Under the pieces are notes generated by a model. That model worked only from the letters and a program-made list of their open reading frames with translations. It searched no databases and was not told the DNA's origin. DNA of 64,000 bases from Sphingopyxis sp. Lineage in GTDB: Bacteria > Pseudomonadota > Alphaproteobacteria > Sphingomonadales > Sphingomonadaceae. Shown one piece after another: positions 10,897 through 30,652 of the stretch (position 1 is the first letter of the stretch; each line of letters starts with the position of its first letter). The stretch is from NCBI GenBank assembly GCA_016793775.1, contig JAEULK010000102.1, positions 27,647 to 91,646 on the forward strand, read 5' to 3'. Position numbers and translations under genes: made by a program.

Positions 10897-10912
10897 TTAA
10901 TCGATTGATTAA
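10897..10912. promoter_or_regulatory. Family-A operator-like palindrome (A1)
   Basis: Reads TTAATCGATTGATTAA, a 16-bp palindrome with a single mismatched pair. It lies 45 bases before the DUF2889-ligase operon and near-identical sites precede at least four other operons of the island. Its form is that of a TetR-type operator. Confidence 0.6.
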
Positions 10913-10959
10913 ATGTCTGTGTCAGCTTGGGGGAGGGCCGTCAAGTCGGCGACTGGATA

Positions 10960-11568
10960 TTAGCGGATTTCGCTGCCCGCGAGCAGGGGCTGGACGATAA
11001 AGCGGCGGATGAAGCGGCGCTTTTCGGCATCGTCGATCTGCGGCGAGGCGACCTGCAGCATCAGCATCGATTGGGCGCGTCCCAGCCAATAGATCATCTC
11101 GTCGATCTCCAGGTCGGCCGCGATCTCGCCGCGCGCGCGCGCCTGTTCGAACATGTTGGACCACCAGGTGCGCTGCATCTGCTGCATCAGGCTGCTCGGC
11201 GAGATCACCGATTCCTGGAACTCGATGCTCTCGACCATGCGGCGGATATAGACATTCTCGTTCGCCAGCCGGATCACGAGCAAAAGGGTATTCGACAGGA
11301 AATCGGCGAAATCGTCCGAACGCACCAGCCGCCGCCGCACCTCGCTGTTGACCCGCCAGGTTTCGCGCACCGAAATCTCGTCGAGGATCGCGTCCTTGCT
11401 CGGATAATATTTATAGACGGTCGGGCGCGACACCTTGGCCCGGCTCGCTATATTCTCGATCGTCGTCTTGCCGATCCCATATTGTTCGAAACAATCATAG
11501 GCGGCGCGCAGAATACGCTCCTGCGTCGAATTGTCGTCCGTCCGGGCTGCCGCCGGGCCGCTGTCCAT
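10960..11568 (-). CDS. TetR/AcrR family transcriptional regulator
   Basis: The 202-residue regulator has its N-terminal HTH (YGIGKTTIENIASRAKVSRP, then TVYKYYPSKDAIL) intact and an all-helical C-terminal half. The start taken, MDSGPAAARTDD, has AGGAG a few bases upstream; a longer in-frame reading extends into the upstream gene and is not credible. It is the last gene of the leftward P450-ACAD-ACAD-molybdoenzyme run, 82 bases after the molybdoenzyme. It is a close relative of the TetR at 188-814. Best guess: it represses the family-A promoters, including its own operon at 17302. That is inference from position. Confidence 0.9.
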   Translation of the reverse strand: MDSGPAAARTDDNSTQERILRAAYDCFEQYGIGKTTIENIASRAKVSRPTVYKYYPSKDAILDEISVRETWRVNSEVRRRLVRSDDFADFLSNTLLLVIRLANENVYIRRMVESIEFQESVISPSSLMQQMQRTWWSNMFEQARARGEIAADLEIDEMIYWLGRAQSMLMLQVASPQIDDAEKRRFIRRFIVQPLLAGSEIR

Positions 11569-11650
11569 GCATTTGTCTCCTGCCCCGACCGGGGAATGCT
11601 GTATTCGACCGTCGTAGCAAGGCTGGCATCGCGAACAAGTCGCAAATTCG

Positions 11651-13771
11651 TCACGCGGCGGCGGCGATCTTGCGGATCGATACTTCCAGCCCGTCCATGA
11701 TCGTCGTGCCCGAGATCGCCTCGACCGCCGCTTCGCCGACCGGCAGCAGCCAGTTGATGTTGCTGCCGCCCTGCGCATTGGCGTGTTGCCAGCCGCCATG
11801 ATGGCCCCAGCCGTGCGGATAGCTGACGGTGCCGGGGCGCATATCCTCGGTGACCGCGATGCACACCGTGACGCTCGCGGGGCCGATCGACAGGTCGACC
11901 GCCTCGCCATCGGACAGCCCGAGCCGCGCGGCATCCCCGGGGTGCATCAGCAATTCGGGATGCTGGCTGCGGACGAGGCGCGGGACGTTATGAAGCCAGC
12001 TGTTGAGCGAGCGGATGTCGCGGTGGGTGATCAGGCGCAGCGTGTCGGCCGGGGTCGGCGTCAGGCGCGCGAATTCGTCGGCGATCATCGTGTGCCACAG
12101 CTTCGCGCGCCCGTCCGGCCAGGCGATGCGCGGCCAGGGATCATAGGGATCGGGCAGCTCGACCATCACGCCATGCGGCACTTCGCGCAGCGCGTCGAAG
12201 CTCCACCCCTCGCGCGCACCCATGTCGTCGCCGGCGGGGCCGAGGCGGAAGGCCTTATCGAGATCGTCCATCGGGCGCCCGTGTGTCGGCTGGCCCATAC
12301 GCACCAGCAGGCCGTTGAAAATCTCCCACTCCGACCGCGCCTCGCCGACCGGCGGGATGACCGCGTCGGTCACCTGCACGAAGGGGCGGATCATCGATCC
12401 AAGCCCCGCCATCGGATAATCGTCGCGCTCGAAAAAGGTCGGCACGGGCAGGATATAATCGGCGTAACGGTTGCTTTCGGTCTGGTAGAGGTCGAGCGCG
12501 ACGATCAGATCGAGCCGCGTCAGCGCGTCGATCAGCGTTTGGCCACCGGGCGCCGACATTACCATATTGCCGCCGGTCAGGATCATCGCGCGCACCTGGC
12601 CGGGGCCCGGTTCCAATATGTCCGCGGGCAGCATCGCCGAGGCGAGGAATTGCGCAACGCTGGGGAAGTCGCCGACGCGGCTGCGCGTGTCGCCATAGCC
12701 GCCGGTCAGCACCTTTTGCGATCCGCCCAGAATTTGGCGGCTGAAGATCGCGCCGCCCTTCCTGCCCAATTTGCCGCCGAGCAGGTTGAGTGCGATCAGC
12801 AGAAAATTTTCGAGCGTCGCATGCGGCCCGCGGCACACGCCCAGCCGGCCATAGGCCACCGCGCGCGGCGTCGCGGCGAAGCTGCGCGCGAGGTCGGTGA
12901 TGGTGTCGGCGTCGATGCCCGCGCGTTCGGCGCAGTCGGCGAGGTCATATTGTGCCACCGCAGCGGCGAGTTCCTCCAGCCCATCGGTATGGTCGGCGAC
13001 ATAGTCCGTATCGAACAGCCGTTCGTCGATCAGCACACTCAGCAGCCCGAGCAGCAGCCAGATATCGCCATTGGCGCGCACCGCGACATGCTGGTATCGG
13101 CGCGCGGTTTCGGTGCGGCGCGGGTCGACGACCACCACACGCCCGCGCTCGGAGATCGCGTCGAGATCGTGGCGCACGCGCGGCGCCCAGACCATCGATC
13201 CGTTGGAAACCAGCGGGTTGGCACCGAACATGAGCAACATGTCGGTATGCGGAAGGTCGGGAATCTCATAGGTCACCGCCGAACCGAAGGCGAGGTAGCA
13301 GGCGGTCAGCCGCGCATTTGTGTCCTGCGACCCCGCGCCATAATATTTGGTGATGCCCAGCGTCTTGAGGAAGGCCTTCAGACTGAACGACACGTCGATG
13401 CCGAAGGCGATCGGATTGCCTTTGTACGAGGCGACCGCGTCGGGGCCATGGGTGTCGATCACGCGGTCCAGCCGCGCCGCAATATCGTCGAGCGCTTCGT
13501 CCCAGTTTACGGGCGCGAACTCGCCCGGTCCGCCGGCGCGCTTCATCGGGGTGAGGATGCGGTCGGGGTCGTAGGTGACATTGTGGAAGGTGATGCCCTT
13601 CAGGCAGACATGGCCTTGGGAATGCGGGTTGGTCTTGTCGGGCTGGACGTCGGTGATGCGCCCGTTTTCGACCTTGGCGGTGAGGCCGCAATGCGCTTCG
13701 CAAAGGCGGCAGAAGGTGACATGCATCCCGTCCTCGCCGGGCTGAAGTCGTGTCGCGGGGGTCTCGGTCAT
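11651..13771 (-). CDS. Molybdopterin-dependent oxidoreductase (FdhF/BisC-like)
   Basis: Large-subunit type molybdoenzyme of the DMSO-reductase superfamily. The N-terminal [4Fe-4S] ligands are C21, C24, C28 and C56 (CRLCEAHCGL ... HVCLKG), followed by GANPLVS and VVVDPRRTETA for cofactor binding and a C-terminal cofactor-capping domain near VSYPHGWGHHGGWQ. The start MTETPATRLQ was chosen because an upstream extension lacks conservation. No electron-transfer or membrane subunit is adjacent. The position expected for the Mo ligand (DTNARLTACYLAFG) appears to be Thr156 instead of Cys/Sec/Ser. It has a paralogue at 17460-19595. It lies between a TetR and an acyl-CoA dehydrogenase pair, so oxidation or hydroxylation of a CoA-bound intermediate is plausible. 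Confidence 0.9.
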   Translation of the reverse strand: MTETPATRLQPGEDGMHVTFCRLCEAHCGLTAKVENGRITDVQPDKTNPHSQGHVCLKGITFHNVTYDPDRILTPMKRAGGPGEFAPVNWDEALDDIAARLDRVIDTHGPDAVASYKGNPIAFGIDVSFSLKAFLKTLGITKYYGAGSQDTNARLTACYLAFGSAVTYEIPDLPHTDMLLMFGANPLVSNGSMVWAPRVRHDLDAISERGRVVVVDPRRTETARRYQHVAVRANGDIWLLLGLLSVLIDERLFDTDYVADHTDGLEELAAAVAQYDLADCAERAGIDADTITDLARSFAATPRAVAYGRLGVCRGPHATLENFLLIALNLLGGKLGRKGGAIFSRQILGGSQKVLTGGYGDTRSRVGDFPSVAQFLASAMLPADILEPGPGQVRAMILTGGNMVMSAPGGQTLIDALTRLDLIVALDLYQTESNRYADYILPVPTFFERDDYPMAGLGSMIRPFVQVTDAVIPPVGEARSEWEIFNGLLVRMGQPTHGRPMDDLDKAFRLGPAGDDMGAREGWSFDALREVPHGVMVELPDPYDPWPRIAWPDGRAKLWHTMIADEFARLTPTPADTLRLITHRDIRSLNSWLHNVPRLVRSQHPELLMHPGDAARLGLSDGEAVDLSIGPASVTVCIAVTEDMRPGTVSYPHGWGHHGGWQHANAQGGSNINWLLPVGEAAVEAISGTTIMDGLEVSIRKIAAAA

Positions 13772-13784
13772 CGCGCGCCCGATT

Positions 13785-14801
13785 CTAAAGCCCGGCGATC
13801 CGGGCGAGGTGCCAGTCGCTATCGGCCCATGATACCTCGATCGCCATCGCGCGTTTGACATAATGACCGATGGGCAGCTCGTCGGTCATGCCCATGCCGC
13901 CGTGGAGCTGGATCGCTTCTTGCCCGACAAGGCGGCAGGCGCGCGCGATATTGACCATCGCGCTCGACACCGCGCGGGCGCGGGCGGCAGGTCGTTCGTC
14001 GAGTGCTTCCACCGCGAGCCACGCCGAGGAGCGCGCGAGTTCGCATTCGAGATACATGTCGACCATGCGGTGCTGAAGCGCCTGGAAGCCGGCGATCGGC
14101 TGGCCGAACTGGCGGCGCTGGCCGGTGTAGGCGATCGTCTGTTCGAGCAGGCTGTCGAGCAGGCCGACGGCTTCGGCGGCGAGCAATGCGAGCGCGCGGT
14201 CGCGCGCTTCCTCAAGCAGGTCGAGCGCGCCGCATTCGGGGCCGATCAGCGCGTCGTCGGGGAGGGCGTGATCTTCAAATATCAAGTCGGCAGCGGGATG
14301 GCCGTCGATCGTTCGGTAGGGCGAAAGGCGGAGGCCGTCGGTTCGGGCGGAGTCGATCCGGAAGAGCGACAGGCCGTCGCCTCCGGTGCGCGCGGCAACC
14401 AATAGGGCATCGGCCTCGGTCGCCCAGTCCACGACCGCCTTGGTTCCTTCAAGGCGCCAGCCATCGCCGTTCCGCCGTGCACGGGTTTCGATGCCGGCAA
14501 AATCGTAGCGCAGACCCGGCTCTGCCCAGGCGAGGGTCGCGATTGCCGTGGCGGGCGGGACAGGGGCGTTGCAGCGATCAAGCAGCCACGCGGCGGTTGC
14601 CACTTCGGCGAGCGGCAGATGGACCCGCGCCCGTCCGATTTCCTCGGCGATGATGGCGCCCTGCTGCGCGTCGAGTAGCGCGCGCCCGATGCCGAGCCGA
14701 TCGATGAAATCGAACCACCGAGGCGCATCATCCTTAGCCAGATAAGTCCGCACGGCATCGCGTAGCATCACCTGTTCGGCGTCGGACAGCGGGGCGGTCA
14801 T
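13785..14801 (-). CDS. Acyl-CoA dehydrogenase, short-type subunit
   Basis: FAD-dependent dehydrogenase introducing a 2,3-double bond in an acyl-CoA. The C-terminal helical domain shows RRQFGQPIAGFQALQHRMVD and IQLHGGMGMTDELPIGHY. At 338 residues it is shorter than usual because the N-terminal domain is abbreviated. Its start overlaps the end of the second dehydrogenase by four bases (ATGA), so the two are translated together. Adjacent unlike dehydrogenases of this kind are known to form heterotetramers in steroid side-chain degradation, where only one subunit carries the catalytic Glu. That assembly is inferred here. Confidence 0.9.
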   Translation of the reverse strand: MTAPLSDAEQVMLRDAVRTYLAKDDAPRWFDFIDRLGIGRALLDAQQGAIIAEEIGRARVHLPLAEVATAAWLLDRCNAPVPPATAIATLAWAEPGLRYDFAGIETRARRNGDGWRLEGTKAVVDWATEADALLVAARTGGDGLSLFRIDSARTDGLRLSPYRTIDGHPAADLIFEDHALPDDALIGPECGALDLLEEARDRALALLAAEAVGLLDSLLEQTIAYTGQRRQFGQPIAGFQALQHRMVDMYLECELARSSAWLAVEALDERPAARARAVSSAMVNIARACRLVGQEAIQLHGGMGMTDELPIGHYVKRAMAIEVSWADSDWHLARIAGL

Positions 14802-15988: not shown

Positions 15989-16034
15989 ATGATGATCCTG
16001 TCGACAGGGTGGGGGCCACCACCCTAGACCATGG

Positions 16035-17231
16035 TCAGGATGCGCGGAAGGTGACCGGCAGGGTCTTCAGCGTCCGTGCTTCCCCGACTGCGAAGACCGG
16101 CTGGAAATCGGAACGGATCCGGATATCGGGCAGGCGGTCGAAGATCGAGCGGATCATCATTTCGAGCAGCGCCTTGGCGAAATGCTGGCCGATACAGATA
16201 TGCGCGCCGCCGCCGAAGCCCAGATGGTCGTGCTCGGTGCGCACGTCGCGGTCGAAGCGGACTTCATTCGGATCGGCGAAACGGCCGGGATCGTGGTTCG
16301 CCGCGCCGTTCATCGCCATGATATAATCGCCGGCCTTCAGCGGGCAGCCCTCGAGCTCGGTGTCGCGCGTGACGGTGCGGCGCAGCCCCTGGATCGGCGA
16401 GGCGTAGCGCACGAATTCCTGCAGCGCGGTCGGGAAATCGATCTCGCCGTTCAACAGCTTCGTGCGCTCCGCAGGGTGTTCGATCAGATACCAGAGCGAC
16501 ATGCCCGCGACTGCGCTGGTCGTGTCGAGCCCGCCGAACAGCACCAGCGTGGCGATGCCGACGATTTCGTCGTCGGTCAGCTTCTCACCGCCGATTTCGG
16601 CATCGATCAGCGTCTGCATCAGATCGTCCTCGGGGGGCGACTGTCGGCGACGCGCAGCGAATTCATGGAGATACTGGCTGAGCTCGAGACCATATTGGCC
16701 GCAGGTTTCGGGATCCTCGACGCGCATGCGGGTCAGAAAATCGATCTTGTGTGCCAGCGTGTCCCAATCTTCGTGCGGCACGCCGAGGAAGGGCATGATC
16801 ACGGTGGCGAGCGTCGGGCGGACGAGTTGTTCCTGCAATTCGGCCTCGCCGGTGGGCGCGATCGCGTCGAGCAATTCGGTGATGATCGCCTGGAAGCGCG
16901 GGCGATATTTCTGGATCGCGTCGGGCAGGAAGATCGGGTTGAGCAATTTACGCATCCGCGTCTGCTGCGGCGGGTCGAGGTCGATCGGATAGAGCGGCAA
17001 GGGCTGCTTGGGCAGCGCGGTGCCGTCGGCCGAACTGAAGGTGCGAAAATCGTCATAGACGCGGCGCGTCGCGGCATAATTGGTGGTGTACCAGAAGCCG
17101 CCGAGCTGCTCCGAGCGCGCTACGGGGCAGCCGGTGTCACGGACCTTGTCGTAGAAGTCGTAGGGGCGCTGCATCAGATTGCTGTCGTGCTGGCTGAACT
17201 CTTCCACCGCATAGTCTTTGACGTCCGCCAT
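16035..17231 (-). CDS. Cytochrome P450
   Basis: Soluble bacterial class-I P450 of 398 residues. The I-helix oxygen-binding motif LFGGLDTTSAVAG lies at about 231-243, the K-helix ExxR is E272-R275 (EFVR), and the heme-binding loop HLGFGGGAHICIGQ carries the proximal ligand C346. No membrane anchor is present. The start MADVKDYAVE follows GAGAGG by about nine bases. It would need a [2Fe-2S] ferredoxin, and the gene at 20278-20598 supplies a suitable one; the reductase is not in the window. It leads a leftward operon behind a family-A site at 17302. It probably hydroxylates an unactivated carbon of the hydrophobic substrate. Confidence 0.95.
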   Translation of the reverse strand: MADVKDYAVEEFSQHDSNLMQRPYDFYDKVRDTGCPVARSEQLGGFWYTTNYAATRRVYDDFRTFSSADGTALPKQPLPLYPIDLDPPQQTRMRKLLNPIFLPDAIQKYRPRFQAIITELLDAIAPTGEAELQEQLVRPTLATVIMPFLGVPHEDWDTLAHKIDFLTRMRVEDPETCGQYGLELSQYLHEFAARRRQSPPEDDLMQTLIDAEIGGEKLTDDEIVGIATLVLFGGLDTTSAVAGMSLWYLIEHPAERTKLLNGEIDFPTALQEFVRYASPIQGLRRTVTRDTELEGCPLKAGDYIMAMNGAANHDPGRFADPNEVRFDRDVRTEHDHLGFGGGAHICIGQHFAKALLEMMIRSIFDRLPDIRIRSDFQPVFAVGEARTLKTLPVTFRAS

Positions 17232-17301: not shown

Positions 17302-17317
17302 TCAACCAAGCGATTAA
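17302..17317. promoter_or_regulatory. Family-A operator-like site (A5)
   Basis: On the minus strand it reads TTAATCGCTTGGTTGA, matching the left half of the family-A consensus well and the right half poorly. It lies 71 bases upstream of the P450 start. A separate inverted repeat, TGACA-agacg-TGTCA, abuts it at 17290-17304. Confidence 0.4.
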
Positions 17318-17426
17318 TTATTTCGTGCGCCGATTGTACAGGAAACGTTGGGTTACGAGGATTTTTGGCGATATCGACCGACTTTACATTTTGAAGAATC
17401 TGGACAGTCGGCGAAAAGAATGAAAG

Positions 17427-17458
17427 GCTCCAACCAAACGACTAACTGGAGCGACTCC
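17427..17458 (+). promoter_or_regulatory. Competing hairpins around the ribosome-binding site of the second molybdoenzyme gene
   Basis: GCTCCA (17427-17432) can pair with TGGAGC (17447-17452), and GGAG (17448-17451) can instead pair with CTCC (17455-17458). GGAG is the likely ribosome-binding site for the ATG at 17460, so either fold would hide it. The loop holds AAACGACTAAC, similar to the core of the family-A sites. A regulatory role is a hypothesis. Confidence 0.35.
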
Positions 17459-17459: not shown

Positions 17460-19595
17460 ATGCGACCAGCCACGGGTGAGGACGGCGATCATATCACTTT
17501 CTGCCGCATCTGCACGGCGGTGTGCGGGCTGGTGGCGACGGTCGAGGACGGCAAGGTCGTGCGCGCCCGGCCCGACCCCGACAATCCGTCGTCGCAGGGG
17601 CAAGCGTGCGTCAAGGGCATCGCCTATCATGGCGTGACGCACGATCCCGACCGGGTGACGCGGCCGATGAAGCGCGTTGCGTCCGGCCGCTTCGAGCCGG
17701 TGAGTTGGGACGAGGCGCTGGACGATATCGCGGCGCGGCTGTCGGCGATCATCGCCGAGCATGGGCCCGATGCGGTGGCGAGCTATCAGGGCAATCCGCC
17801 GGCCTATGCGACCGACGGCATGACGGGGTTCCGCATGTTTCTGAAGGCGCTGGGCACGACCAAAATCTATGGTGCGGGGTCGCAGGACACCAATGCGCGC
17901 TTCACCGCCAACTGGCTCCTTTACGGCAGCCCGCTGACGATCGACGTGCCCGACGTCAACAATGCCGATTTCATGCTGATCTTCGGCGCCAACCCGTTGA
18001 TCTCGCACGGGTCGCTGATCTTCACCCCGCGCGTGCGGCAGCAACTGGATGCAGTGGCGGCGCGCGGCGACGTGGTGGTCGTCGATCCGCGGCGCAGCGA
18101 AACCGCAGCGCGCTACGACCATGTCGCGATCGAGCCCAACTCAGACTGCTGGCTGATGCTGGCGATGCTCAAGACGCTCGCCGACGAGGGGCTGGCCGAT
18201 GAGGCGTTCCTGGCGGAGCGTTGTGCAGGTTGGCCCGAATTGCGGGTCGCGCTCGCGGACATCGATTATGACGAAGCGGCGCGGCGCACGGGGATCGAGG
18301 TCGCTACGATCAGGGGGCTCGCGCACCGGCTCACCGCCAGTCCCAGGTCGGTCTGCTACGGCCGCGTCGGCATCTGCCGCGGGCCGCATGCGACGCTCGC
18401 CAACTTCCTGCTCTCGGCGCTCAATATGGTTGGCGGCACCTTCGGGCACGAGGGTGGCAGCACCTTCGCGACCCCGGTGCTCGCGGGCAGCGACCGGGCG
18501 ACGACGGGCGGCTATGACGAGGTGCGCAGCCGGGTCGGCAATTTCCCGAGCGTGACGCAATTCCTGCCCTCGGCGGTGATGCCCGACGATATCCTCGAAC
18601 CCGGCCCCGGCAAGGTCCGCGCGCTTCTGTCGCTCGGCGGCAATGTGCTGCTCGCGGCACCGGGCGGCGAGCGGCTGCGGCGCGGGCTCGAACAGCTTGA
18701 ACTGTCGGTCTCGTTCGACCTCTATATCAACGAGGCCGGGTCCTACGCCGATTATGTGCTGCCGGGGCTGACCTTCTACGAGCGCGCCGACCTGCCGATG
18801 GTGCCTTTCATGAGCATGGTGCAGCCTTTCCTGCAATATGCCGAGCCGGTGATCCCGCCGGTGGGCGAGGCGCGGAGCGAGTTCGACACATTCTGCGCGA
18901 TATTGGCGCGGATGGGGCTGCGCATGCCCGCCGCCTCGCCCGACGAGATCGCGGCGCAGGCGGCGGGGGGGCAGATGCGCCCGCTCGAGGTGCTCGACGG
19001 CGCGATAAGGCAAGGGCCGGCGGGGCTGCACGGCGACTGGTCGATCGACAAGTTGCGGCAGCATCCGCACGGGGTGATGCTCGACATCCCGATCCCCTGG
19101 GGCAATCAGGACAAGATCGCGCACGCCGATGGGAAAATCCATCTGTGGGACGACATGGTCGCCGCGGAGCTCGACCGGCTGGTCGCGACCGCGCCGATCG
19201 GGGGGCTGAAACTGCTGTCGCGGCGCGACATGCGCTCGCACAATGGCTGGCTGCACAATGTCGACCGGCTGATCCGCTCGCAGAAGCCGACCTTGCACAT
19301 CCACCCCGACGATGCCGCCGAGCGCGGGCTGGCGGACGGCGACCGCGCGACGCTGTCGAACCGCTTCGGCGCGATCGAGGTCGAGGTGGAGGTGAGCGCC
19401 GACCACCGGCGTGGCACCGTGTCCTATCCGCATTGCTTCGGGCACGACACGGGCGGCTGGCAGCGCGCGAACCGCGCCGGGGGCGCGAATGTCAACATCC
19501 TGCTTGGTCACGGCCCTGACGTCGTCGAGGCGGTGTCGGGGACGACGCTGATGGACGGGATCGCGGTCGAGGTGACCGCGCTACAGCCCGCGTGA
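17460..19595 (+). CDS. Molybdopterin-dependent oxidoreductase, paralogue of the 11651 enzyme
   Basis: DMSO-reductase-superfamily catalytic subunit of 711 residues. The [4Fe-4S] ligands are C15, C18, C22 and C50 (CRICTAVCGL ... QACVKG). Shared landmarks with the 11651 protein include AGSQDTNAR, IFGANPLIS, VVVDPRRSETAARYDH and VSYPHCFGHDTGGWQ. As in the paralogue, the residue at the usual Mo-ligand position appears to be Thr (T149 in DTNARFTANW). It is transcribed divergently from the P450 operon. No small subunit is adjacent, so electrons may go to the ferredoxin encoded nearby or to a soluble carrier. Two paralogues suggest two substrates or successive steps. Confidence 0.9.
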   Translation: MRPATGEDGDHITFCRICTAVCGLVATVEDGKVVRARPDPDNPSSQGQACVKGIAYHGVTHDPDRVTRPMKRVASGRFEPVSWDEALDDIAARLSAIIAEHGPDAVASYQGNPPAYATDGMTGFRMFLKALGTTKIYGAGSQDTNARFTANWLLYGSPLTIDVPDVNNADFMLIFGANPLISHGSLIFTPRVRQQLDAVAARGDVVVVDPRRSETAARYDHVAIEPNSDCWLMLAMLKTLADEGLADEAFLAERCAGWPELRVALADIDYDEAARRTGIEVATIRGLAHRLTASPRSVCYGRVGICRGPHATLANFLLSALNMVGGTFGHEGGSTFATPVLAGSDRATTGGYDEVRSRVGNFPSVTQFLPSAVMPDDILEPGPGKVRALLSLGGNVLLAAPGGERLRRGLEQLELSVSFDLYINEAGSYADYVLPGLTFYERADLPMVPFMSMVQPFLQYAEPVIPPVGEARSEFDTFCAILARMGLRMPAASPDEIAAQAAGGQMRPLEVLDGAIRQGPAGLHGDWSIDKLRQHPHGVMLDIPIPWGNQDKIAHADGKIHLWDDMVAAELDRLVATAPIGGLKLLSRRDMRSHNGWLHNVDRLIRSQKPTLHIHPDDAAERGLADGDRATLSNRFGAIEVEVEVSADHRRGTVSYPHCFGHDTGGWQRANRAGGANVNILLGHGPDVVEAVSGTTLMDGIAVEVTALQPA

Positions 19596-19606: not shown

Positions 19607-20251
19607 TCAGGGGGCGAGGCCGCGCAGATAGATGTCGCAGACCATCTCGGCATATTTCTGCTTGATGCCGTCGTCGAGCTTCGCGACCCCCAAGGTCGAG
19701 GGCACCGAATAGCCGGCGTGGAAGATATGGTCGGCGGCGCCGACGAGGCAATAATAAAGCAGTCCGGGGTCGACGTCCTTGAGCACGCCCTCGTGCACCC
19801 CCTGTGCCACGATGTCGCGATAGACGTCGATCATCGGCTCGATGAAGATCTGCGCGACGCGCTTGCTCGCCGCGGGGCTGCCCGATTCGACCATATAATG
19901 GATCAGCCGGTTGATGTAGGGCGAGCGGTAATAGGCGTTGATGATGCCGTTGATGTGGATTTTCAGCTTCTTCTGCGCGGGAATATCCATCTCGCTCAGC
20001 GCCTTGAGCGCGGTCATCGCGGTCTCGGCATCGCGTTCGAGCACCGCGAGCAGCAGGCCTTCCTTGTTGCCGAAATAATATTTGATCATCGCGCTGTTCA
20101 CCGACGCGCGCTGCGAAATCTCGTTGAGCGACACGTCGATCGTCGTGGCCTCCGACAGCAGCTGCGCGGTCGCGTTCAAAAGCGCTTCGGCGGACGCCGA
20201 CCGCTCCTCGCGCCGGGCTGCCTTGATCGTCGAGCCGCTGTCATTGTCCAT
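19607..20251 (-). CDS. TetR/AcrR family transcriptional regulator
   Basis: A 214-residue regulator whose HTH includes VSLNEISQRASVNSAMIKYY and then FGNKEGLLLAVLE. This is the variant in which a tyrosine pair precedes the fourth helix. It is not especially close to the two paralogous TetRs of the island. The start MDNDSGSTIKAA was chosen because the upstream extension overlaps the ferredoxin gene; the ribosome-binding site is weak. It lies 26 bases behind the ferredoxin gene in the same direction and converges on the molybdoenzyme gene. It may regulate the ferredoxin/GMC divergent promoter, which carries two family-A sites. Confidence 0.88.
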   Translation of the reverse strand: MDNDSGSTIKAARREERSASAEALLNATAQLLSEATTIDVSLNEISQRASVNSAMIKYYFGNKEGLLLAVLERDAETAMTALKALSEMDIPAQKKLKIHINGIINAYYRSPYINRLIHYMVESGSPAASKRVAQIFIEPMIDVYRDIVAQGVHEGVLKDVDPGLLYYCLVGAADHIFHAGYSVPSTLGVAKLDDGIKQKYAEMVCDIYLRGLAP

Positions 20252-20277: not shown

Positions 20278-20598
20278 CTATCGTTGGGACTCGGGAAGGA
20301 AGACTGTCAAGCCCTCCAGGTCGTCGGTCATCGCGATCTGGCACGACAGGCGGCTGTTTGGGCGCGGGTCGTTGGCGCAGTCGAGCATCTCGCTTTCGTC
20401 GGCGCCGGCGGGCCCCACGCGCTCGACCCATTCTGGGGCGACATAGATGTGGCAGGTCGCACAGGCGCAGACGCCGCCGCAATCGGCCTCGATGCCATCG
20501 ACCATAGCATCGCGCGCGCCGCGCATGACCGAGTCGCCGACCTCGATCTCGATCGTCTCGACGCTGCCGTCGGTTGCATGGAAATTGACGCTCGGCAT
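20278..20598 (-). CDS. [2Fe-2S] ferredoxin, adrenodoxin/putidaredoxin type
   Basis: A 106-residue electron carrier. The cluster ligands fit C-x5-C-x2-C with a distal Cys: C40, C46, C49 and C86 (DCGGVCACATCH and LSCQIAM). C44 is an additional cysteine inside the loop. This vertebrate-type spacing is the one that serves bacterial class-I P450s, and a P450 is encoded 3 kb away in the same island. Expression is from a promoter shared with the GMC oxidoreductase, with family-A sites at 20639 and 20701. It could also supply the Rieske oxygenase or the molybdoenzymes. No ferredoxin reductase is seen in the window. Confidence 0.94.
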   Translation of the reverse strand: MPSVNFHATDGSVETIEIEVGDSVMRGARDAMVDGIEADCGGVCACATCHIYVAPEWVERVGPAGADESEMLDCANDPRPNSRLSCQIAMTDDLEGLTVFLPESQR

Positions 20599-20638: not shown

Positions 20639-20654
20639 TCAATCGATCAATTAA
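20639..20654. promoter_or_regulatory. Family-A operator-like palindrome (A2)
   Basis: Reads TCAATCGATCAATTAA. It lies 41 bases before the ferredoxin start and aligns with the sites at 10897, 20701 and 30637 over the core AATCGA and the distal ATTAA. Confidence 0.6.
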
Positions 20655-20700: not shown

Positions 20701-20716
20701 TTAATTAGTCGATTGA
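20701..20716. promoter_or_regulatory. Family-A operator-like palindrome (A3)
   Basis: On the minus strand it reads TCAATCGACTAATTAA, differing from A2 at two positions. It ends just before the GGAGAGG ribosome-binding site of the GMC oxidoreductase gene, so a bound repressor would block the transcription start or elongation. Confidence 0.6.
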
Positions 20717-20726: not shown

Positions 20727-22331
20727 ATGTCGGGCGAGGAAGCGGATTATATCGTCGTGGGCGGCGGCAGCGCCGGCTGCGTCCTCGCGGCGCGGCTGAG
20801 CGAGGATCCGGGCGTCCGCGTCGCGTTGGTCGAGGCGGGCGGCGAATCGACCGGGCTGATGGTCCAGATGCCGGTCGGCTTCGCCAAGATGCTCGTCGAC
20901 GACCGCTACGACTGGAAATATTGGCAGCTGCCCGACCCGTCGATCAACGGGCGTCGCTTCATCTGGTCGGGCGGGAGGATGCTCGGCGGCGGCAGCGCGA
21001 TCAACGGCCAGGTCTATATCCGCGGCACGCGCGCCGATTTCGACGCCTGGGAGCGGCTCGGTGCGACGGGGTGGAATTTCGACGGCGTCTTTCCCTATTT
21101 TCTGCGCAGCGAAAGCTGGGCCGGGGCGCCGAGCCAGAACCACGGGTCGCAGGGGCCGCTGTCGGTGTCACCGATGCGCGATCCACATCCCTTGTGCGAC
21201 CTGTTCCTGCGCGCGTGCGAGCAATATGGGCTGGCGCGGCTCGACGATTATAACGGCGGGCAGATGGAGGGTGCGTATCTCACCCAGGCGACGCAGCGCG
21301 ACGGCTGGCGGTGCAGCACCGAAAAAGCCTATCTGCGCGACGCCCGCAAGCGGCCCAATCTGATGACGATCACCGATGCGCATGTCGAAACGATCCTGAT
21401 CGAGCAGGGCGAAGCGGTCGGCATCCGCTATCGCCAGGGCGGCGATGCCAAGGTCCTGCGCGCGCGGCGCGAGGTGATCGTCTCGTCGGGATCGATGGGG
21501 TCGCCCGCTTTGCTGCTGCGTTCGGGGATCGGCGCCGGCGATTATCTGCAGTCGCGCGGCATCGCGGTCCAGGCCGACCGGCGCGAGGTCGGGCATAATC
21601 TGCAGGAACATCCCGGCATCACGCAGAACAAGTTCGTCAGCGTGCCGACGCTCAACAGCCAGGTCGGGCCGATCGACATGATCCGCCACCTGACCAAATT
21701 CTTCTGGAACAAGAGTGGCCCCATGGGCGCCCCCGCGGTGCAGGCGATGGGGCTCGCGCGCACGCGCGACGGGCTCGACGAACCCGATATCCAGCTCCAT
21801 TTCATGCCGCTCGCCTATAATGTCGAGCCCGAGACGGTGTCGTCGGCCGAGGCGGTGATGCCCAAGGAGCCGTGCATCAGCATCAATGTCTCGCTGACCC
21901 GCCCCAAGTCGCGCGGCCGCGTCGAGCTGGGCGAGGCGCTCGAACCGGTGATCAACCATCAATTGCTCGGCGAGCGTGCCGACGTCGATACGCTGATCGG
22001 CGCGATGAAGCTGGTCGACCGGCTGTTCGCGATGCCGGCGCTGAGCGCGATCACGCTCGGCGACCGCTCGCCCGATCCTGTGCCGACCGACGATGCCGGC
22101 TGGGAGGTCTATGTCCGCGCCAAGACGATGATCACTTACCACCCCGTCGGCAGCTGCCGCATGGGGTTGGATGCGGCGTCGGTGGTCGATCCGCAATGCC
22201 GGGTGCGCGGGGTCGGTCGGCTGCGCGTCGTCGACGCCTCGATCATGCCGCAGATCACCAGCGGCAACACCAATGCCGCCACGATCATGATCGGCGAAAA
22301 GGCCGCCGAGCTGATCCGCACCAGCGCATGA
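20727..22331 (+). CDS. GMC family oxidoreductase (choline/alcohol dehydrogenase-like)
   Basis: FAD-dependent alcohol oxidation. The N-terminal FAD-binding motif is VVGGGSAGCVLAARLSEDPG, the GMC signature region includes GGRMLGGGSAINGQVYIRGT, and the C-terminal catalytic region includes YHPVGSCRMG and ITSGNTNAATIMIGEKAA. The 534-residue length is standard. It is first gene of a five-gene rightward operon (GMC, crotonase, crotonase, aldehyde dehydrogenase, SDR) with a four-base overlap to the next gene. It could oxidise the alcohol made by the P450 to an aldehyde, which the downstream aldehyde dehydrogenase would convert to the acid. That order is inference. Confidence 0.94.
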   Translation: MSGEEADYIVVGGGSAGCVLAARLSEDPGVRVALVEAGGESTGLMVQMPVGFAKMLVDDRYDWKYWQLPDPSINGRRFIWSGGRMLGGGSAINGQVYIRGTRADFDAWERLGATGWNFDGVFPYFLRSESWAGAPSQNHGSQGPLSVSPMRDPHPLCDLFLRACEQYGLARLDDYNGGQMEGAYLTQATQRDGWRCSTEKAYLRDARKRPNLMTITDAHVETILIEQGEAVGIRYRQGGDAKVLRARREVIVSSGSMGSPALLLRSGIGAGDYLQSRGIAVQADRREVGHNLQEHPGITQNKFVSVPTLNSQVGPIDMIRHLTKFFWNKSGPMGAPAVQAMGLARTRDGLDEPDIQLHFMPLAYNVEPETVSSAEAVMPKEPCISINVSLTRPKSRGRVELGEALEPVINHQLLGERADVDTLIGAMKLVDRLFAMPALSAITLGDRSPDPVPTDDAGWEVYVRAKTMITYHPVGSCRMGLDAASVVDPQCRVRGVGRLRVVDASIMPQITSGNTNAATIMIGEKAAELIRTSA

Positions 22332-25395: not shown

Positions 25396-26177
25396 GCGCC
25401 GCCTACACCGCCGGCCTGTTCGACGTCGCCGGCAAGCGCGCGCTGGTGACGGGCGCGACGTCGGGAATCGGCCGGATGATCGCGCGTGGGCTGGCGCAGG
25501 CGGGGGTCGAGGTCTGGGTCGTCGCGCGCGGAGCAGGCGATGTCGATGCGATCGTCGCCGAACTCGGCGGGAATGCGCAAGGGGTCGCGGCGGACGTCGC
25601 GACCGACGAAGGCATCGCGCGTATCGCCGAGGCGCTCGGCGACCGGCCGCTCCATATCCTGGTCAACAATGCCGGAACCGACCGCCCGACGCCGCTCGAC
25701 GCCGAGGGGCGCGAAGATTTCGACGCCGTGCTGGGGCTCAACCTGACCGCGCCCTTCCTGCTGACGCGCAAATTGCTGCCGCAGCTCGAAGGCGCCGCGA
25801 CGCCGGGCGATCCGGCGCGGGTGATCAACATCGCCTCGATCGCCGCGCTCAACCCCGGCCATCTCGAGAATTTCGCCTATGCGTCGAGCAAGTCGGGCGT
25901 CGTGATGATGTCGCGCCACCTCGGCCGCCATCTCGCGAAGCGCAATATCAGCTGCAACGCGATCGCGCCGGGGCTCTTTCCCTCGCGGCTCACCGAGCAA
26001 TTTCTGGGCATGAGCGAGACCGACGCGGTGCCCAAGGCCTTCGTCTCGCCGCTCGGCGCGCGGGCAGGGGAGATGGACGATATCGCCGGCGCGGTGATCT
26101 ACCTTTCATCGCGTGCCGGGGCTTGGGTGACGGGCGTGCTGCTTCCCGTCAGTGGCGGCATTTCCACCGTCAGCTGA
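25392..26177 (+). CDS. Short-chain dehydrogenase/reductase
   Basis: Classical SDR of 261 residues. The cofactor motif is VTGATSGIGRMIARG, the structural motif is NNAG (LVNNAGTDRP), and the active site is YASSKSG with a preceding catalytic Ser in NIASIAALN. It probably works on a hydroxyacyl-CoA or a cyclic alcohol or ketone. It is the last gene of the GMC operon. Its stop codon abuts, with no spare base, the stop codon of the thiolase-like gene on the opposite strand, so the two operons end face to face and share any 3' signals. Confidence 0.93.
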   Translation: MSAAYTAGLFDVAGKRALVTGATSGIGRMIARGLAQAGVEVWVVARGAGDVDAIVAELGGNAQGVAADVATDEGIARIAEALGDRPLHILVNNAGTDRPTPLDAEGREDFDAVLGLNLTAPFLLTRKLLPQLEGAATPGDPARVINIASIAALNPGHLENFAYASSKSGVVMMSRHLGRHLAKRNISCNAIAPGLFPSRLTEQFLGMSETDAVPKAFVSPLGARAGEMDDIAGAVIYLSSRAGAWVTGVLLPVSGGISTVS

Positions 26178-27341
26178 TCAGTCGATCCCGAAGATCGCCG
26201 AACTGATCGTCGGCGCCCCCGGCCCGCCCGCAAGCAGGCACGTCCGCGCGCCCGCCACCGGGTTCGGGCTTTCGCCGCGCAGGCAGCGCACCGCCTCGAC
26301 CGCGGTGACGAAGCCGTGGACGAAACCATGCGCCAGATTGCCGCCCGAGGTGTTCACCGGCAGCTTGCCCGACGGCGCGATCAGATTTTCGAAGCGCACG
26401 ACCTCGGCGACATTCTCGTAACTGCAGAAGCCATGGTCGATCAGCGAAGCGATGCCCTGCGCGCTGAAATTCTCGTAGAGCTGGACGACGTCGATGTCGG
26501 CCGGCGTCAATCCCGCAGTACCGTACAGCCGCTCGCGGATCGCGCGGAAACCGGCGGTCGGATAGAGATCGGTCACATCATTCTCGAGCAGGTCGCCGTA
26601 CCCCGCCTCGGTCCCCTGCGCGACCGACAGCAGCTTGACCGGCTTCTTCTTGAGGTCGCGCGCCATTTCGGTCGAGACGAGCAGGATCGCGCCTGCGCCG
26701 TCATTCTCGCGGCTGCAATCAAAGAGGTGGAAGGGCTCGGCGATGATCCGCGAGCCGCGGTACTCGTCATGGTCGAAGTCCTTGCCATAGGCCACAGCCT
26801 CGGGATTGCGGCTGCCGTGATAATAGGACGCACGGACCAGTTCTTCGCACAGTTCGTAGGGCACGCCATGATATTCGAACATCCGCTGCGCGCGCATCGC
26901 GCAGACCTGCGCAGGGGCGAGGATGCCCGATGAGACCATATGGTCATTCAAATGATGCGCCATCACCGCTGCCGACAGCCGCCCGCTATTGCCCTCGACC
27001 AATGCGCGGAACACGACGACGGCGCGCGCCTGTCCGGTCAGGATCGCCGAGGCGGCGATGCCGAAGGCGCCCGCGATGCCGCCGCCGCCGCCGCCCCACA
27101 CCTGCGCCGACCAGTTGATCGCCCTAGTGCCGAGGTCGGGCATCAGCCGCACCGGCTCATTCTTGTCGTCGCCATAGGAGACGAAGCCGTCGACGTCGGC
27201 AGGGTCGAAGCCCGCGTCCTCGCACGCATCGACGATGGCGCGAACGAGCACGCCGCGTTCGGGGACGGGCGCGGTGCCGCGCTTGTACTGGCGATAACCG
27301 ACGCCGGCGGCGGCGACCAAGCCCGACAAATTGGGGTTCAT
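26178..27341 (-). CDS. Thiolase-like lipid-transfer protein (possible Ltp2-type aldolase)
   Basis: A 387-residue thiolase-superfamily protein of the SCP-x/Ltp thiolase-like group (LSGLVAAAGVGYRQYKRGTA at the start, VVQLYENFSAQGIASLIDHG in the middle, VNTSGGNLAHGFVHGF late). It is preceded, with a four-base overlap, by a DUF35 gene. In Actinobacteria, Ltp2-like proteins bound to a DUF35 partner cleave a steroid side chain by retro-aldol chemistry, using Tyr residues rather than the thiolase Cys. The YENFS segment may correspond to that Tyr region. An alternative is true thiolase or 3-ketoacyl-CoA cleavage. The start MNPNLSGLV was chosen by conservation and overlap. Confidence 0.85.
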   Translation of the reverse strand: MNPNLSGLVAAAGVGYRQYKRGTAPVPERGVLVRAIVDACEDAGFDPADVDGFVSYGDDKNEPVRLMPDLGTRAINWSAQVWGGGGGGIAGAFGIAASAILTGQARAVVVFRALVEGNSGRLSAAVMAHHLNDHMVSSGILAPAQVCAMRAQRMFEYHGVPYELCEELVRASYYHGSRNPEAVAYGKDFDHDEYRGSRIIAEPFHLFDCSRENDGAGAILLVSTEMARDLKKKPVKLLSVAQGTEAGYGDLLENDVTDLYPTAGFRAIRERLYGTAGLTPADIDVVQLYENFSAQGIASLIDHGFCSYENVAEVVRFENLIAPSGKLPVNTSGGNLAHGFVHGFVTAVEAVRCLRGESPNPVAGARTCLLAGGPGAPTISSAIFGID

Positions 27342-27748
27342 AAGAGCCTCCAGCGACTGGCGGGAATCTGCGCGTCGCCGAAGGCGGTACGCGCGATGGT
27401 GCCGGTGACGGGGGCGCCGATCCTGAGGCCCGTTTCGTCGCCTTCGAGCACGCCGACCAAGCGGACCGGCACCGTGTCGAGCGTGACGATCAGTGTCGCG
27501 AAAGGCTTGGCGAAGGCTTCGGTACCACCGAACGGATGGTGGGTGCGGGTGTAGGTGAATACGGTGCCGGCCAGTGACTGTTCCACCCATTCATGGTCCC
27601 AGCCGCCGCAACTGCCGCAGCGCCACACCGCGGGCCAATGCCATTGGCCGCATCCTTTGCAGCGCGGCAGTTCGAGCCGCCCTTCCAGAAGCGCGTCCCA
27701 ATAGCGCCCCTCGGCGCCGATCGGTCCCGTTGCCGAATGATAGGCCAT
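27338..27748 (-). CDS. Zn-ribbon/OB-fold protein (DUF35), partner of the thiolase-like protein
   Basis: A 136-residue protein with a rubredoxin-like zinc ribbon (C30, C33, C44, C47 in CKGCGQWHWPAVWRCGSCGG) followed by an OB-fold (TVFTYTRTHHPFGG). DUF35 proteins bind thiolase-like partners and can hold the CoA moiety. The four-base overlap with the downstream thiolase-like gene strongly suggests a complex. The divergent upstream region contains the clearest family-B site (27803-27819), 55 bases before the start, shared with the EthD-domain gene. Confidence 0.92.
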   Translation of the reverse strand: MAYHSATGPIGAEGRYWDALLEGRLELPRCKGCGQWHWPAVWRCGSCGGWDHEWVEQSLAGTVFTYTRTHHPFGGTEAFAKPFATLIVTLDTVPVRLVGVLEGDETGLRIGAPVTGTIARTAFGDAQIPASRWRLL

Positions 27749-27802
27749 TCGCCCCTGCCATCCTTTCCCGCCCGCGTTCGCTGCGAGCCATTGCCATCAT
27801 TT

Positions 27803-27819
27803 ATCTACACTATATAGAT
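27803..27819. promoter_or_regulatory. Family-B operator-like palindrome (B3)
   Basis: Reads ATCTACACTATATAGAT: ATCTA and TAGAT arms around seven bases. It sits between divergent starts at 27748 and 27888 and is the best palindrome of the family. Confidence 0.6.
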
Positions 27820-27887
27820 TCGATGTCGACGTGCAATGGTGAAGTGCGCGGGACGCGACAAGGTCCGCGCCGATGGGAGAGTTGACG

Positions 27888-28259
27888 ATGCTGCGAGTGA
27901 CCTTTTGCCTGAAGCGGCTGCCAGGGATGACGCGCGAGGAGTTTCAGGATTATTGGCGGAACCGCCATGCCCCGTTGGTCAGGGAGCATGCCGCGGCGCT
28001 GGGCATCCGTAAATATGTCCAGTCGCACAGCCTGAGCCTGCCCGGTGCCTTTCCGCTGGCCGAGGTTCGCGGCTCTGTCGGCCTCGATTTCGACGGCGTG
28101 GCGCAGCTGTGGTGGGACGATATGGCGAGCTTTGCCGCCGCGGGATCGACCGAGGCGGGGCGCGTCGCGGGCGCGTTGCTGCTCGCGGACGAGAGGAAAT
28201 TCATCGACCTGCCGAATTCGCCGATCTTCCTCTCGGAAGATTTTCAGGTCATCGATTAG
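27888..28259 (+). CDS. EthD domain-containing protein (dimeric alpha/beta barrel)
   Basis: A 123-residue ferredoxin-like-fold protein. The EthD hallmark LRVTFCLKRLPGMTREEFQD and the following YWRNRHAPLVREH are clear. EthD proteins accompany P450 and other oxidative degradation systems; some relatives are small decarboxylases or cyclases, but this protein's role is unknown. The ATG at 27888 has GGAGAG seven bases upstream and is preferred over an ATG five codons earlier. Its last bases overlap the convergent CoA-transferase stop codon. It is expressed from the family-B promoter region shared with the DUF35 gene. Confidence 0.85.
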   Translation: MLRVTFCLKRLPGMTREEFQDYWRNRHAPLVREHAAALGIRKYVQSHSLSLPGAFPLAEVRGSVGLDFDGVAQLWWDDMASFAAAGSTEAGRVAGALLLADERKFIDLPNSPIFLSEDFQVID

Positions 28260-30541
28260 CCCGTCGCGGTGACGGGGTGGGAGCTCGCCATATGCGCCTC
28301 GGCCTGCCGCCGCGTCGCCTCGGCGAGCGGTTCGAGTATGGCATCGATCTTCAATGCCGCAATGCCCGCCGCGTCGATGCCGAGCCAGTCGGCGATGACC
28401 TCTTCGCTCTGCTCGCCGCTGAGCGGCGCGGGGCGGAGCGGCGGGGCGGGCAGGTCGGCGGTGCGGACGACATAGGCGTCGCCGACGACCTTCTCCTGCA
28501 ACCAGGGATGATCCTCGATCCGGTAAAATCCGCGCGCGCGGAAATAGGGGAAGTCGGGAAGTTCGACGAGGCGCAGCATCGGCGCGGCGGCAATGCCCGC
28601 CGCCTGCAATGTCTCCGCCGTTTCATGCTGGTTGCGGCCGGTCGTCCAGGCTTCGATCGCCGCGTCGATTTCGCCCCGCGCGGCGAGGCGTTTGGCGGGG
28701 CTGTCGAAGACCGAACCTTCGTCATAGCCGATCGCCGTGCACAGCTTCGCCCAGTCGCCATCGCCCTCGATCGTGATAACGCACCATTCGTCGCTGCCGG
28801 CTGTGCGATACACGCCCCACGGCCAGTCCGTGGGCGCGCCGCCCGCGGGCGTGCCGCGCACGACATCGGCGGCGAAATGGCCGATCATCACCTCCGACTG
28901 CGCGACCTTGGCGACCCCGCCCAACCCGGTGCGCAGGCGGCGGATCAGCAGCGCCGCGACCCCGATCGCGCAGATGCGCCCCGCGACATGGTCGGGATAG
29001 ACGGTGATCGAATCGCTGAAGCTCAAAGGATCGTCGGGATAGCGCCAGGCGAGTGTCAGCCCGGTCGAGGCGCGCACCAGCGGGCCATAACCCATACGCC
29101 CGCTCCACGGCCCTGTGTCACCGAACGCCGAGCTTTCGGACACGACGAGGCGCGGGTTGACCCTGCGCAGCTCGGCTTCGCCGAGGCCCAGCTTTTCCAT
29201 CGTGCCCGGCTTGAAATTCGAACAGACGACGTCGGCCTGTCGCACCATGTCGAGGAACAGGTCGCGACCTGCGTCGCTGCGCAGGTTGATGCCCAGGCTG
29301 CGCTTGTTGCGATGGCCGGCGGCGAAGCTAACCGACATGCCATGCTCCAGATAGGATTGGCGGCTGCCGTCGGGAAAGGCGCCGCTCTCGATCTTGATCA
29401 CATCGGCGCCGAGGTCGCCGAGCAGCCGCGCGCCCTCGGCGCCGACCACGATCACGCCGAGGTCGAGGACCTTGAGGTCGCCGAACGGGGCGAGGGGGGC
29501 GGCGGTGGCGGCGGGAAAGCTCGCCGCTTCGGGCGCGGTCAGCGGTCCCATGCGCGCGCCGTCGATGGTCAGGAACCCATTGGGCAGCCGCGTGCCGTCG
29601 TCGAGCGTCGCCACCGCCTCGCGTGCTGCGGCATGGTCGCTGTCGAGAAACTCGCCGAGCGTCAGCACCGACGCGATCGGCACGCCGTGCCGCTGGCCCT
29701 CGCCCTCGAGGTCGATGCGACGCTTGTCGGCGAAAAATCCGGCGATGTAAGGGAGGAGTTCGGCCGATGCATAACGGTGCGAGGTGCGGTCGAAGTCGGG
29801 CGAGGCGAATTGTTCGGGTTCGCCCATCCACTGGAACATGCCGCGCCACTGGCGCTTGGCAAGCAGGCAGATGCGCACATAGCCGTCGGCGCAGCGCAGG
29901 ATCGGATATTGGAAGCCCGCGCGGGGGCGGTCGCGCATCAGCAGCCCGACGGGTTTGCCCATCGTCGCGCTGCCGTTGATGCCGAAACCCGGATCGAGCC
30001 CCTGCACCGCGCCGTCGAGCGCCGCGAAATCGAAATGCGCGCCTTCGCCGCCGCCGAGGCTCCGGTAGAGCGCTCCGAGCAAGGCGAACACCGCCTGCGG
30101 CGCCGCGCATTGATAGGCGAGCTCGCCGGGCGGCAGCAGCGGCTCGCGCCCGCGGATGCCCGAGCGCGACAGCACCGCCGACAGCGCGTGGAGCACCGGT
30201 CCGGTCGCGCGCCAGTCCGCCAGCGGACCGTCCGCGCCGAAATCGCTGACCGCCATTGTGACGAGGGCGGGGCGGGCCTTGCGGATTGCCGCGAGGTCGA
30301 TTCCCGATGCCGCGTCGGCGATCACGACATGCGCGCGATCGAGGACGGGCGAGGCCCTGTCCGGTCCTTTGGCATGCAGGCGCTTGCCCGCATGAACGAC
30401 GATCCACTCCGCGCTCTGGCTTCCGTCGGGCGCGAAGGCATCGACCTCTGCGCCCAGGTCGGCCAGATAACGCCCGATCATCGCCAGTGGACCGCGCACG
30501 CTTTCGACGACTCGAATGCCTGAAAGCGGGCGGTTGGACAT
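28256..30541 (-). CDS. Tandem CaiB/BaiF CoA-transferase (two fused domains)
   Basis: A 761-residue protein made of two CaiB-type halves. The first starts LSGIRVVESVRGPLAMIGRY and includes LADLGAEVDAFAPDG. The second starts near residue 355 with LKVLDLGVIVVGAEGARLLG and includes LGADVIKIESGAFPDGSRQ and SFAAGHRNKRSLGINLR. Family III CoA-transferases are normally one such domain. The second half keeps the expected Asp (VYPDHVAGRICAIGV); the first reads GELAYQCAAPQAVF at the same place and seems to lack it. So the second half is probably catalytic and the first structural. It is transcribed divergently from the dehydrogenase pair across the family-A site at 30637. Confidence 0.9.
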   Translation of the reverse strand: MSNRPLSGIRVVESVRGPLAMIGRYLADLGAEVDAFAPDGSQSAEWIVVHAGKRLHAKGPDRASPVLDRAHVVIADAASGIDLAAIRKARPALVTMAVSDFGADGPLADWRATGPVLHALSAVLSRSGIRGREPLLPPGELAYQCAAPQAVFALLGALYRSLGGGEGAHFDFAALDGAVQGLDPGFGINGSATMGKPVGLLMRDRPRAGFQYPILRCADGYVRICLLAKRQWRGMFQWMGEPEQFASPDFDRTSHRYASAELLPYIAGFFADKRRIDLEGEGQRHGVPIASVLTLGEFLDSDHAAAREAVATLDDGTRLPNGFLTIDGARMGPLTAPEAASFPAATAAPLAPFGDLKVLDLGVIVVGAEGARLLGDLGADVIKIESGAFPDGSRQSYLEHGMSVSFAAGHRNKRSLGINLRSDAGRDLFLDMVRQADVVCSNFKPGTMEKLGLGEAELRRVNPRLVVSESSAFGDTGPWSGRMGYGPLVRASTGLTLAWRYPDDPLSFSDSITVYPDHVAGRICAIGVAALLIRRLRTGLGGVAKVAQSEVMIGHFAADVVRGTPAGGAPTDWPWGVYRTAGSDEWCVITIEGDGDWAKLCTAIGYDEGSVFDSPAKRLAARGEIDAAIEAWTTGRNQHETAETLQAAGIAAAPMLRLVELPDFPYFRARGFYRIEDHPWLQEKVVGDAYVVRTADLPAPPLRPAPLSGEQSEEVIADWLGIDAAGIAALKIDAILEPLAEATRRQAEAHMASSHPVTATG

Positions 30542-30636
30542 GGGCTTACCCTTCTGTTTTGGCAGGCGACCGGGCCAAAATGCGGTCTCCCTCGATCGTC
30601 GGCGCTTGCCATATCCAGGATGCGAAGAAAAGTTAA

Positions 30637-30652
30637 TTAATCGACTAATTCG
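30637..30652. promoter_or_regulatory. Family-A operator-like site (A4)
   Basis: Reads TTAATCGACTAATTCG within the longer AT-rich TTAATTAATCGACTAATT. It lies between the tandem CoA-transferase (start 30541) and the dehydrogenase operon (start 30704) and could control both. Confidence 0.55.

Follow-up and report, generated by a model that had tools for sequence, protein, structure and literature searches.

TetR-family repressors ordinarily act as dimers on dyads, silencing the units behind them until a ligand binds the C-terminal domain. In a 64,000-nucleotide stretch of a Sphingopyxis sp. genome (contig JAEULK010000102.1, positions 27,647 to 91,646; hereafter the window), a catabolic island carries a recurring 16-bp palindrome in its promoter gaps. 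Sequence comparisons make it quite probable that these palindromes are operators of TetR_19607 (214 aa; 19607 to 20251, minus strand), a TetR-family protein encoded in the island and distantly related to RutR. TetR_19607 carries the N-terminal TetR_N helix-turn-helix domain (PF00440; 8.2e-08, 32.3 bits, cut-off 24) and the C-terminal domain PF14514, TetR_C_9 (9e-26, 91 bits, cut-off 25.3). The arrangement of the locus is also of TetR type, with predicted palindromes S1 to S6 before the targets and S3 before the protein's own operon.

RutR, the regulator of pyrimidine catabolism in Escherichia coli, recognizes a palindrome of roughly 16 bp; both the rut operon and the gene of RutR itself are under its repression (PMC10891134). 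The best-scoring curated family for TetR_19607 was that of RutR, TIGR03613 (E = 3e-12). It is nevertheless not a RutR, because it reached 46.8 bits against a cut-off of 368; a second RutR model, NF011584, gave 46.2 bits against a cut-off of 230. The RutR box, TTGACCAnnTGGTCAA, has the same length and the same outer TT/AA as the palindromes described here, but its half-site is unlike their TYAATYRA. Moreover, RutR controls the rut pyrimidine-degradation genes, whereas the sites here precede genes which Pfam assigns to cytochrome P450, acyl-CoA dehydrogenase (ACAD), enoyl-CoA hydratase (ECH), aldehyde dehydrogenase (ALDH), GMC oxidoreductase, CoA-transferase, and molybdopterin (Mo) oxidoreductase. 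FadP, PsrA, and LiuQ head TetR regulons for the breakdown of fatty acids and branched-chain amino acids (PMC5343134) and resemble the island in that TetR-family proteins control acyl-CoA degradation genes via sites at several operons; in contrast, that paper describes FadP and LiuQ as unique to betaproteobacteria.

The closest solved relative of TetR_19607 was PDB 2QTQ / 2RHA, named "Transcriptional regulator, TetR family" (residues 16-212/214, E = 5e-38). Its recognition helix, NSALVKYYFGNK, is of the same class, but this helix would be expected to read TTAAYCGnnCGRTTAA and not the looser half-site TYAATYRA. We take the source of the structure to be Novosphingobium aromaticivorans. No function or operator of 2QTQ was found among the matches listed in the literature search or in the available part of PMC13176608, and a testable operator prediction is now offered for this orphan crystal structure. 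The open-licence literature likewise showed, among the matches listed, no paper on this operator or regulator; PMC13273656, as far as its available part goes, concerns an IclR repressor.

Predicted operators, their rarity and conservation

The original prediction had placed five copies of the palindrome in the window, and a string search found every string at its position and on its strand. S1 (TTAATCGATTGATTAA, 10897 to 10912) lies 45 to 60 bp upstream of the DUF2889 and acyl-CoA ligase genes (minus strand). S2 (TCAACCAAGCGATTAA, 17302 to 17317) is upstream of a minus-strand operon encoding P450, two ACADs, Mo oxidoreductase, and a TetR. S3 (TCAATCGATCAATTAA, 20639 to 20654) precedes the ferredoxin and TetR_19607 genes (minus strand), and S4 (TTAATTAGTCGATTGA, 20701 to 20716) ends 10 bp before the ATG of the GMC oxidoreductase gene (plus strand). 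The fifth copy was present at 30637 as claimed, but the common dyad fits better 4 bp upstream; S5 was thus set at 30633 to 30648 (TTAATTAATCGACTAA), between the divergent CoA-transferase (minus strand) and ACAD (plus strand) genes. The claim that the sites precede the named operons held, with the amendments that S5 lies between two divergent operons and that a weak sixth operator-like copy was added. This copy, S6 (CCAACCAAACGACTAA, 17430 to 17445, 9.8 bits), lies 14 bp before the Mo oxidoreductase gene starting at 17460 (plus strand). The centers of S1, S2, S3, and S5 are about 48 to 100 bp upstream of the starts. All sites are in gaps between genes, as had been stated; the P450 reading frame was listed from a TTG upstream of S2, and its first ATG is at 17231.

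Alignment of S1 to S5 gave a common dyad of 16 bp, TYAATYRA-TYRATTRA, with half-sites that are largely purine/pyrimidine symmetric. The site consists of tetrads that resemble TYRA, and frames that overlap therefore look much the same. A 20-bp frame centered on TC-GA, TTAATNARTCGAYTNATTAA, was tried, and the window sites fit both frames about equally: the exact dyad held at 4 to 7 of 10 positions in the 20-bp frame versus 4 to 7 of 8 in the 16-bp frame, and purine/pyrimidine symmetry at 7 to 9 of 10 versus 7 to 8 of 8. The 20-bp frame was dropped because the sites of TetR_19607 homologues (TTAATCGnnCGATTAA, TTAAATGnnCATTTAA) show the 16-bp frame and because the S1 and S3 variants in relatives gain symmetry in it (from 7 to 8 and from 6 to 7 of 8, respectively).

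The palindromes, which the original prediction had considered unlikely by chance because they are AT-rich and shared in such GC-rich DNA, proved rare in both window shuffles and a pattern scan of the genome. The window contained 8 strand-hits to TTAATCGATTGATTAA with up to 3 mismatches where 0.14 were expected, and none of 100 shuffles reached this count. A matrix built from the five sites gave 5 matches of at least 14 bits in the window, an in-sample count, against a mean of 0.42 and a maximum of 2 in 50 dinucleotide shuffles. Across all 106 contigs of the genome (3.93 Mb), TYAATYRATYRATTRA with up to 1 mismatch occurred at four places only, S1, S3, S4, and S5. Up to 2 mismatches gave 7 places once overlapping registers were merged, five of them in the island, adding S2, C4:40925, and C39:51220 (9 forward strand-hits versus 3 for the reversed control). 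The laxer, one-sided pattern TTAATCGNNYRATTAA with up to 2 mismatches recovered these five sites plus 7 places outside the island (16 strand-hits versus 5 in the control), and the 20-bp frame with up to 3 mismatches found 4 places, three in the island. The operator-like palindrome at C39:51216-51235 lies near a contig end between AraC-like and cysD-like reading frames, names given from a reading of the sequence; it was taken as unrelated to the regulon.

The sites were also conserved. A named-genome scan found the TetR_19607 gene at 88 to 99% identity in Sphingopyxis sp. HIX, Sphingomonadaceae bacterium 3R27C6, and Sphingopyxis sp. GW247-27LB, and a homologue of 55% identity in Sphingobium fluviale. 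Among 80 genomes of the genus, six besides its own carry the gene at 88 to 99% identity, and these relatives largely retain the gene order of the island. S1 to S4 and S6 were found in all six, and S5 in all five that reach it (the HIX piece ends before S5). S1 differs by a single substitution in each of G337 and G332, S2 reads TCAACCAATCGATTAA in the relatives, S6 is better formed in G337 (CTAATCGATCAATTAA), and all 16 columns of S5 are invariant across the window and five relatives. Overall, 85 of 96 gap columns inside sites were invariant versus 193 of 526 outside (Fisher P = 3e-22), and none of 20,000 random placements of six blocks matched the observed conservation. The gap of S2 and S6 was the least conserved, with 24 of 32 site columns invariant. 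Two other gap blocks, at 17380 to 17420 and 30603 to 30615, around GACTTTACA and CGCTTGCCATATC, are conserved as well; they may be promoter elements or be bound by other factors.

Association of the palindrome with TetR_19607

The island and its borders contain four TetR genes, at 19607, 10960, 188, and 33942. All four had been named as candidates, and palindromes of this kind were found to associate with homologues of one, TetR_19607. At a cut-off of E ≤ 1e-20, its homologues occurred in 47 of 298 genomes of the family and 25 of the 80 genus genomes. In 44 stretches that contain or adjoin these homologues, each up to 20 kb long, the matrix gave 86 matches of at least 14 bits in 868 kb, spread over 33 stretches, compared with 4 matches in 398 kb of control stretches (3 of 20), so that the homologue regions were about tenfold richer. 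Some of the 44 are redundant (L042, L110, L111, and L112 are one cluster, and L043 overlaps L119); with L110 to L112 and L119 dropped, the remaining 40 stretches had 66 matches, of which 51 fell in gaps, which make up 11% of the DNA according to a crude gene caller. Sites were present in L042, L043, L044, and L063, where none of the other three TetRs had a match (cut-offs of 1e-15 and 1e-25). In many relatives, the sites precede other operons of the cluster rather than the TetR_19607 homologue. In the window, TetR_19607 itself sits behind S3, as its gene lies 26 bp behind the ferredoxin gene. Taken by sequence, TetR_19607 is the likely regulator among the four candidates.

The rival that survives best, although improbable, is that the palindromes serve TetR_10960 (10960 to 11568, minus strand), the last gene of the P450 operon, or its paralogue TetR_188. 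TetR_10960 accompanies the island in six orthologous clusters, and S2 heads its operon. However, among the 298 family genomes it matched, at E ≤ 1e-20, only its own genome (itself and TetR_188, 39% identical) and one sequence in G185, which is 32% identical and has an in-frame stop. The TetR_10960 and TetR_188 loci L131 and L132 lack a site (best scores of 8.8 and 4.6 bits), and the four stretches named above carry sites without a TetR_10960 match. A two-input switch, in which TetR_19607 and TetR_10960 share or compete for the same palindromes, appears less probable still: both genes belong to the predicted regulon and are kept in the six orthologous islands, but their recognition helices differ (NSAMIKYYF versus RPTVYKYY).

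It is likewise improbable that, instead of being TetR operators, the palindromes belong to promoters or terminators or are bound by an unrelated global factor. They are AT-rich and near starts, and TTGACA- or CTGACA-like blocks, conserved in the alignments of relatives, adjoin S1, S2, and S3. A terminator-like stem (17452 to 17427) overlaps S6, and its arms change in relatives through substitutions that could keep G-U pairs, so that S6 may be part of a terminator. Terminator-like sites were, however, no commoner in the region than in shuffles (5 versus 10.2), and the palindromes are genome-rare, dyad-symmetric, and associated with one TetR subfamily. The least probable reader of all is TetR_33942, which lies behind the ACAD-ACAD-ECH operon downstream of S5 and is kept in the five orthologous islands covering that part, but which has a different C-terminal domain (TetR_C_1) and whose homologue loci of about 3.6 kb reached at least 14 bits in only 2 of 24 cases (14.8 and 15.2), six of the 24 being orthologues in this same island.

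Several points weigh against assigning the sites to TetR_19607. The rarity counts show rarity and are not independent proof, because the pattern was derived from the same sites. The control stretches were chosen arbitrarily and are not other catabolic clusters, and related genomes are not independent of each other. Immediately around the genes, in the loci of about 3.6 kb, the contrast is weak, with matches of at least 14 bits in 10 of 41 TetR_19607 homologue loci versus the 2 of 24 for TetR_33942 (P = 0.10), and TetR_10960 has too few homologues for a comparable association test. The assignment leans on homologues of about 31 to 55% identity, because those of 88 to 99% were seen only in the same island. 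With up to 2 mismatches, the 20-bp frame occurred in 8 of the 298 family genomes (three times in its own genome and once in each of seven others, with five control hits); four of the seven have a TetR_19607 homologue and three do not, a rate about equal to that of the control. The helix and motif classes compared below were drawn up on the same stretches on which they were tested, and exact TTAAYCGnnCGRTTAA is absent from 14 of the 47 homologue genomes, including the genome of the window. Finally, a consensus sigma-70 scan found no promoter at any site and 2 in the region versus 2.9 expected.

Joint variation of recognition helix and half-site

The half-site and the recognition helix vary together: NSA-[LM]-[VI]-K helices go with TTAA(T/C)CG-like half-sites and NVALVS helices with TTAAATG. 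In 41 de-duplicated stretches, the window included, TYAAYYRnnYRRTTRA-like sites (up to 1 mismatch) accompanied 19 of 21 N[SA]x[LM][VI]K helices versus 10 of 20 other TetRs (P = 0.005). TTAAATGnnCATTTAA-like sites accompanied 6 of 8 NVALVS or NIALVS helices versus 1 of 33 others (P = 4e-5); 4 of these 8 also had TYAAYYRnnYRRTTRA-like sites. The NH-type helices mostly had neither motif, with TYAAYYRnnYRRTTRA-like sites in 2 of 7. Control stretches contained TYAAYYRnnYRRTTRA-like sites in 3 of 20 and TTAAATGnnCATTTAA-like sites in 0 of 20.

Exact copies of both motifs were also counted genome-wide. Exact TTAAATGnnCATTTAA occurred in 13 copies in 6 of the 80 genus genomes, all within 5.5 kb of a TetR_19607 homologue, with 0 copies of the reversed control; the new information is its absence elsewhere, because all 13 copies lie in stretches fetched already. 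The NVALVS-class members in G343 and G340 have no exact TTAAATGnnCATTTAA site. Exact TTAAYCGnnCGRTTAA occurred in 182 copies in 34 of the 298 genomes versus 8 for the reversed control, and 181 of the copies were in genomes with a homologue. It was thus present in 33 of 47 genomes with a TetR_19607 homologue versus 1 of 251 without (by genus, 9 of 18 versus 1 of 78), with 1 to 18 copies per genome, widely spaced where the places were listed.

These results incline us, with modest confidence, toward a common rule for the 2QTQ-like TetR family of sphingomonads. Its members would share one 16-bp frame, TTAAnnr-nn-ynnTTAA, in which a few helix positions (S53 and K57 of TetR_19607) set the inner bases: S..K would read TTAA(T/C)CG-like half-sites, V..S would read TTAAATG, and the H type would leave the frame. 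Paralogues in one genome would thus be insulated from each other, the island using TYAATYRA and the paralogue on contig C49 using TTAAATG. In an alignment counted by hand, S53 aligns with RutR K52, a residue of the helix-turn-helix whose acetylation stops DNA binding by RutR (PMC10891134); this fits a role of the helix in recognition. TetR operators of catabolic islands are well known; less ordinary is that helix and operator have changed in pairs across a natural series. Such variants would provide material for studying how TetR proteins alter their specificity and how the regulons of paralogues are kept apart.

The C49 paralogue (G000:C49:39528-40228, locus L048) is 34% identical to TetR_19607, has the helix NVALVSYYF, and is preceded by two TTAAATGnnCATTTAA palindromes at distances of 46 and 68 bp; a nearby Mo oxidoreductase is 49% identical to that of the window. 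In L105 (6062 to 6101) and L106 (14097 to 14136), three palindromes follow each other in 12-bp steps and overlap by their TTAA ends, which suggests side-by-side dimers. In several sister genera (L182 to L211), TTAAYCGnnCGRTTAA reaches 18 copies per genome, and 18 of 30 fetched loci match an enzyme family of the island, an uncontrolled count; the TetR_19607 homologue there may thus be a genome-wide regulator of acyl-CoA metabolism.

Proposed control of the island and its extent

We propose that a TetR_19607 dimer would bind each 16-bp dyad in the promoter gaps and block RNA polymerase, acting by repression rather than activation. Overlap of the sites with promoter boxes is inferred here, because the consensus scan located no promoter there. 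Six to seven units, of predicted extent, would be kept off. S1 would control the genes for the DUF2889 protein (10076 to 10852, minus strand) and acyl-CoA ligase (8462 to 10063, minus strand), and S2 the operon from P450 (16035 to 17231, minus strand) through ACAD, ACAD, and Mo oxidoreductase to TetR_10960, which is not favored as regulator. S6 would control the second Mo enzyme (17460 to 19595, plus strand). S3 stands before the 2Fe-2S ferredoxin gene (20278 to 20598, minus strand) and TetR_19607, through which autoregulation is predicted. Behind S4 lie the GMC oxidoreductase gene (20727 to 22331, plus strand), two ECH genes, and those for ALDH and a short-chain dehydrogenase/reductase (SDR). 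S5 would control both the family III CoA-transferase gene (28256 to 30541, minus strand) and the ACAD gene (30704 to 31804, plus strand), which is followed by ACAD and ECH. The dimer would be released when its C-terminal domain binds a compound of the pathway, which may be an acid or an acyl-CoA intermediate.

The coherent regulon of one TetR-type repressor that had been predicted is supported by the rarity and conservation of the sites and by their association with one TetR, but part of the island falls outside it. Upstream of the TonB receptor, Rieske, and thiolase genes, and of those between 4310 and 8490, no matrix match reached 8 bits, and the regulon as predicted does not span the whole island. 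The P450, GMC, ALDH, ligase, ACAD, ECH, SDR, and CoA-transferase genes suggest that an alkyl or alicyclic compound is oxidized and that beta-oxidation takes place. Among the NCBIfam matches listed for ten island proteins (the best 25 for three of them), none reached its cut-off. The predicted operators make of an island of uncharacterised catabolic genes a delimited regulon for which a candidate regulator can be named, so that an inducer screen with a single operator reporter could reveal the degraded substrate.

Five orthologous islands (L091/L092, L093, L095, L097/L098, and L099) have an extra aldehyde dehydrogenase gene at the junction of the second ACAD and Mo oxidoreductase genes. This gene was not seen in HIX, and in the window the two flanking reading frames overlap. 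In G332 (L099, 12954 to 15356), a TonB receptor gene, 64% like that of the window, is inserted between an ACAD gene and the P450 gene.

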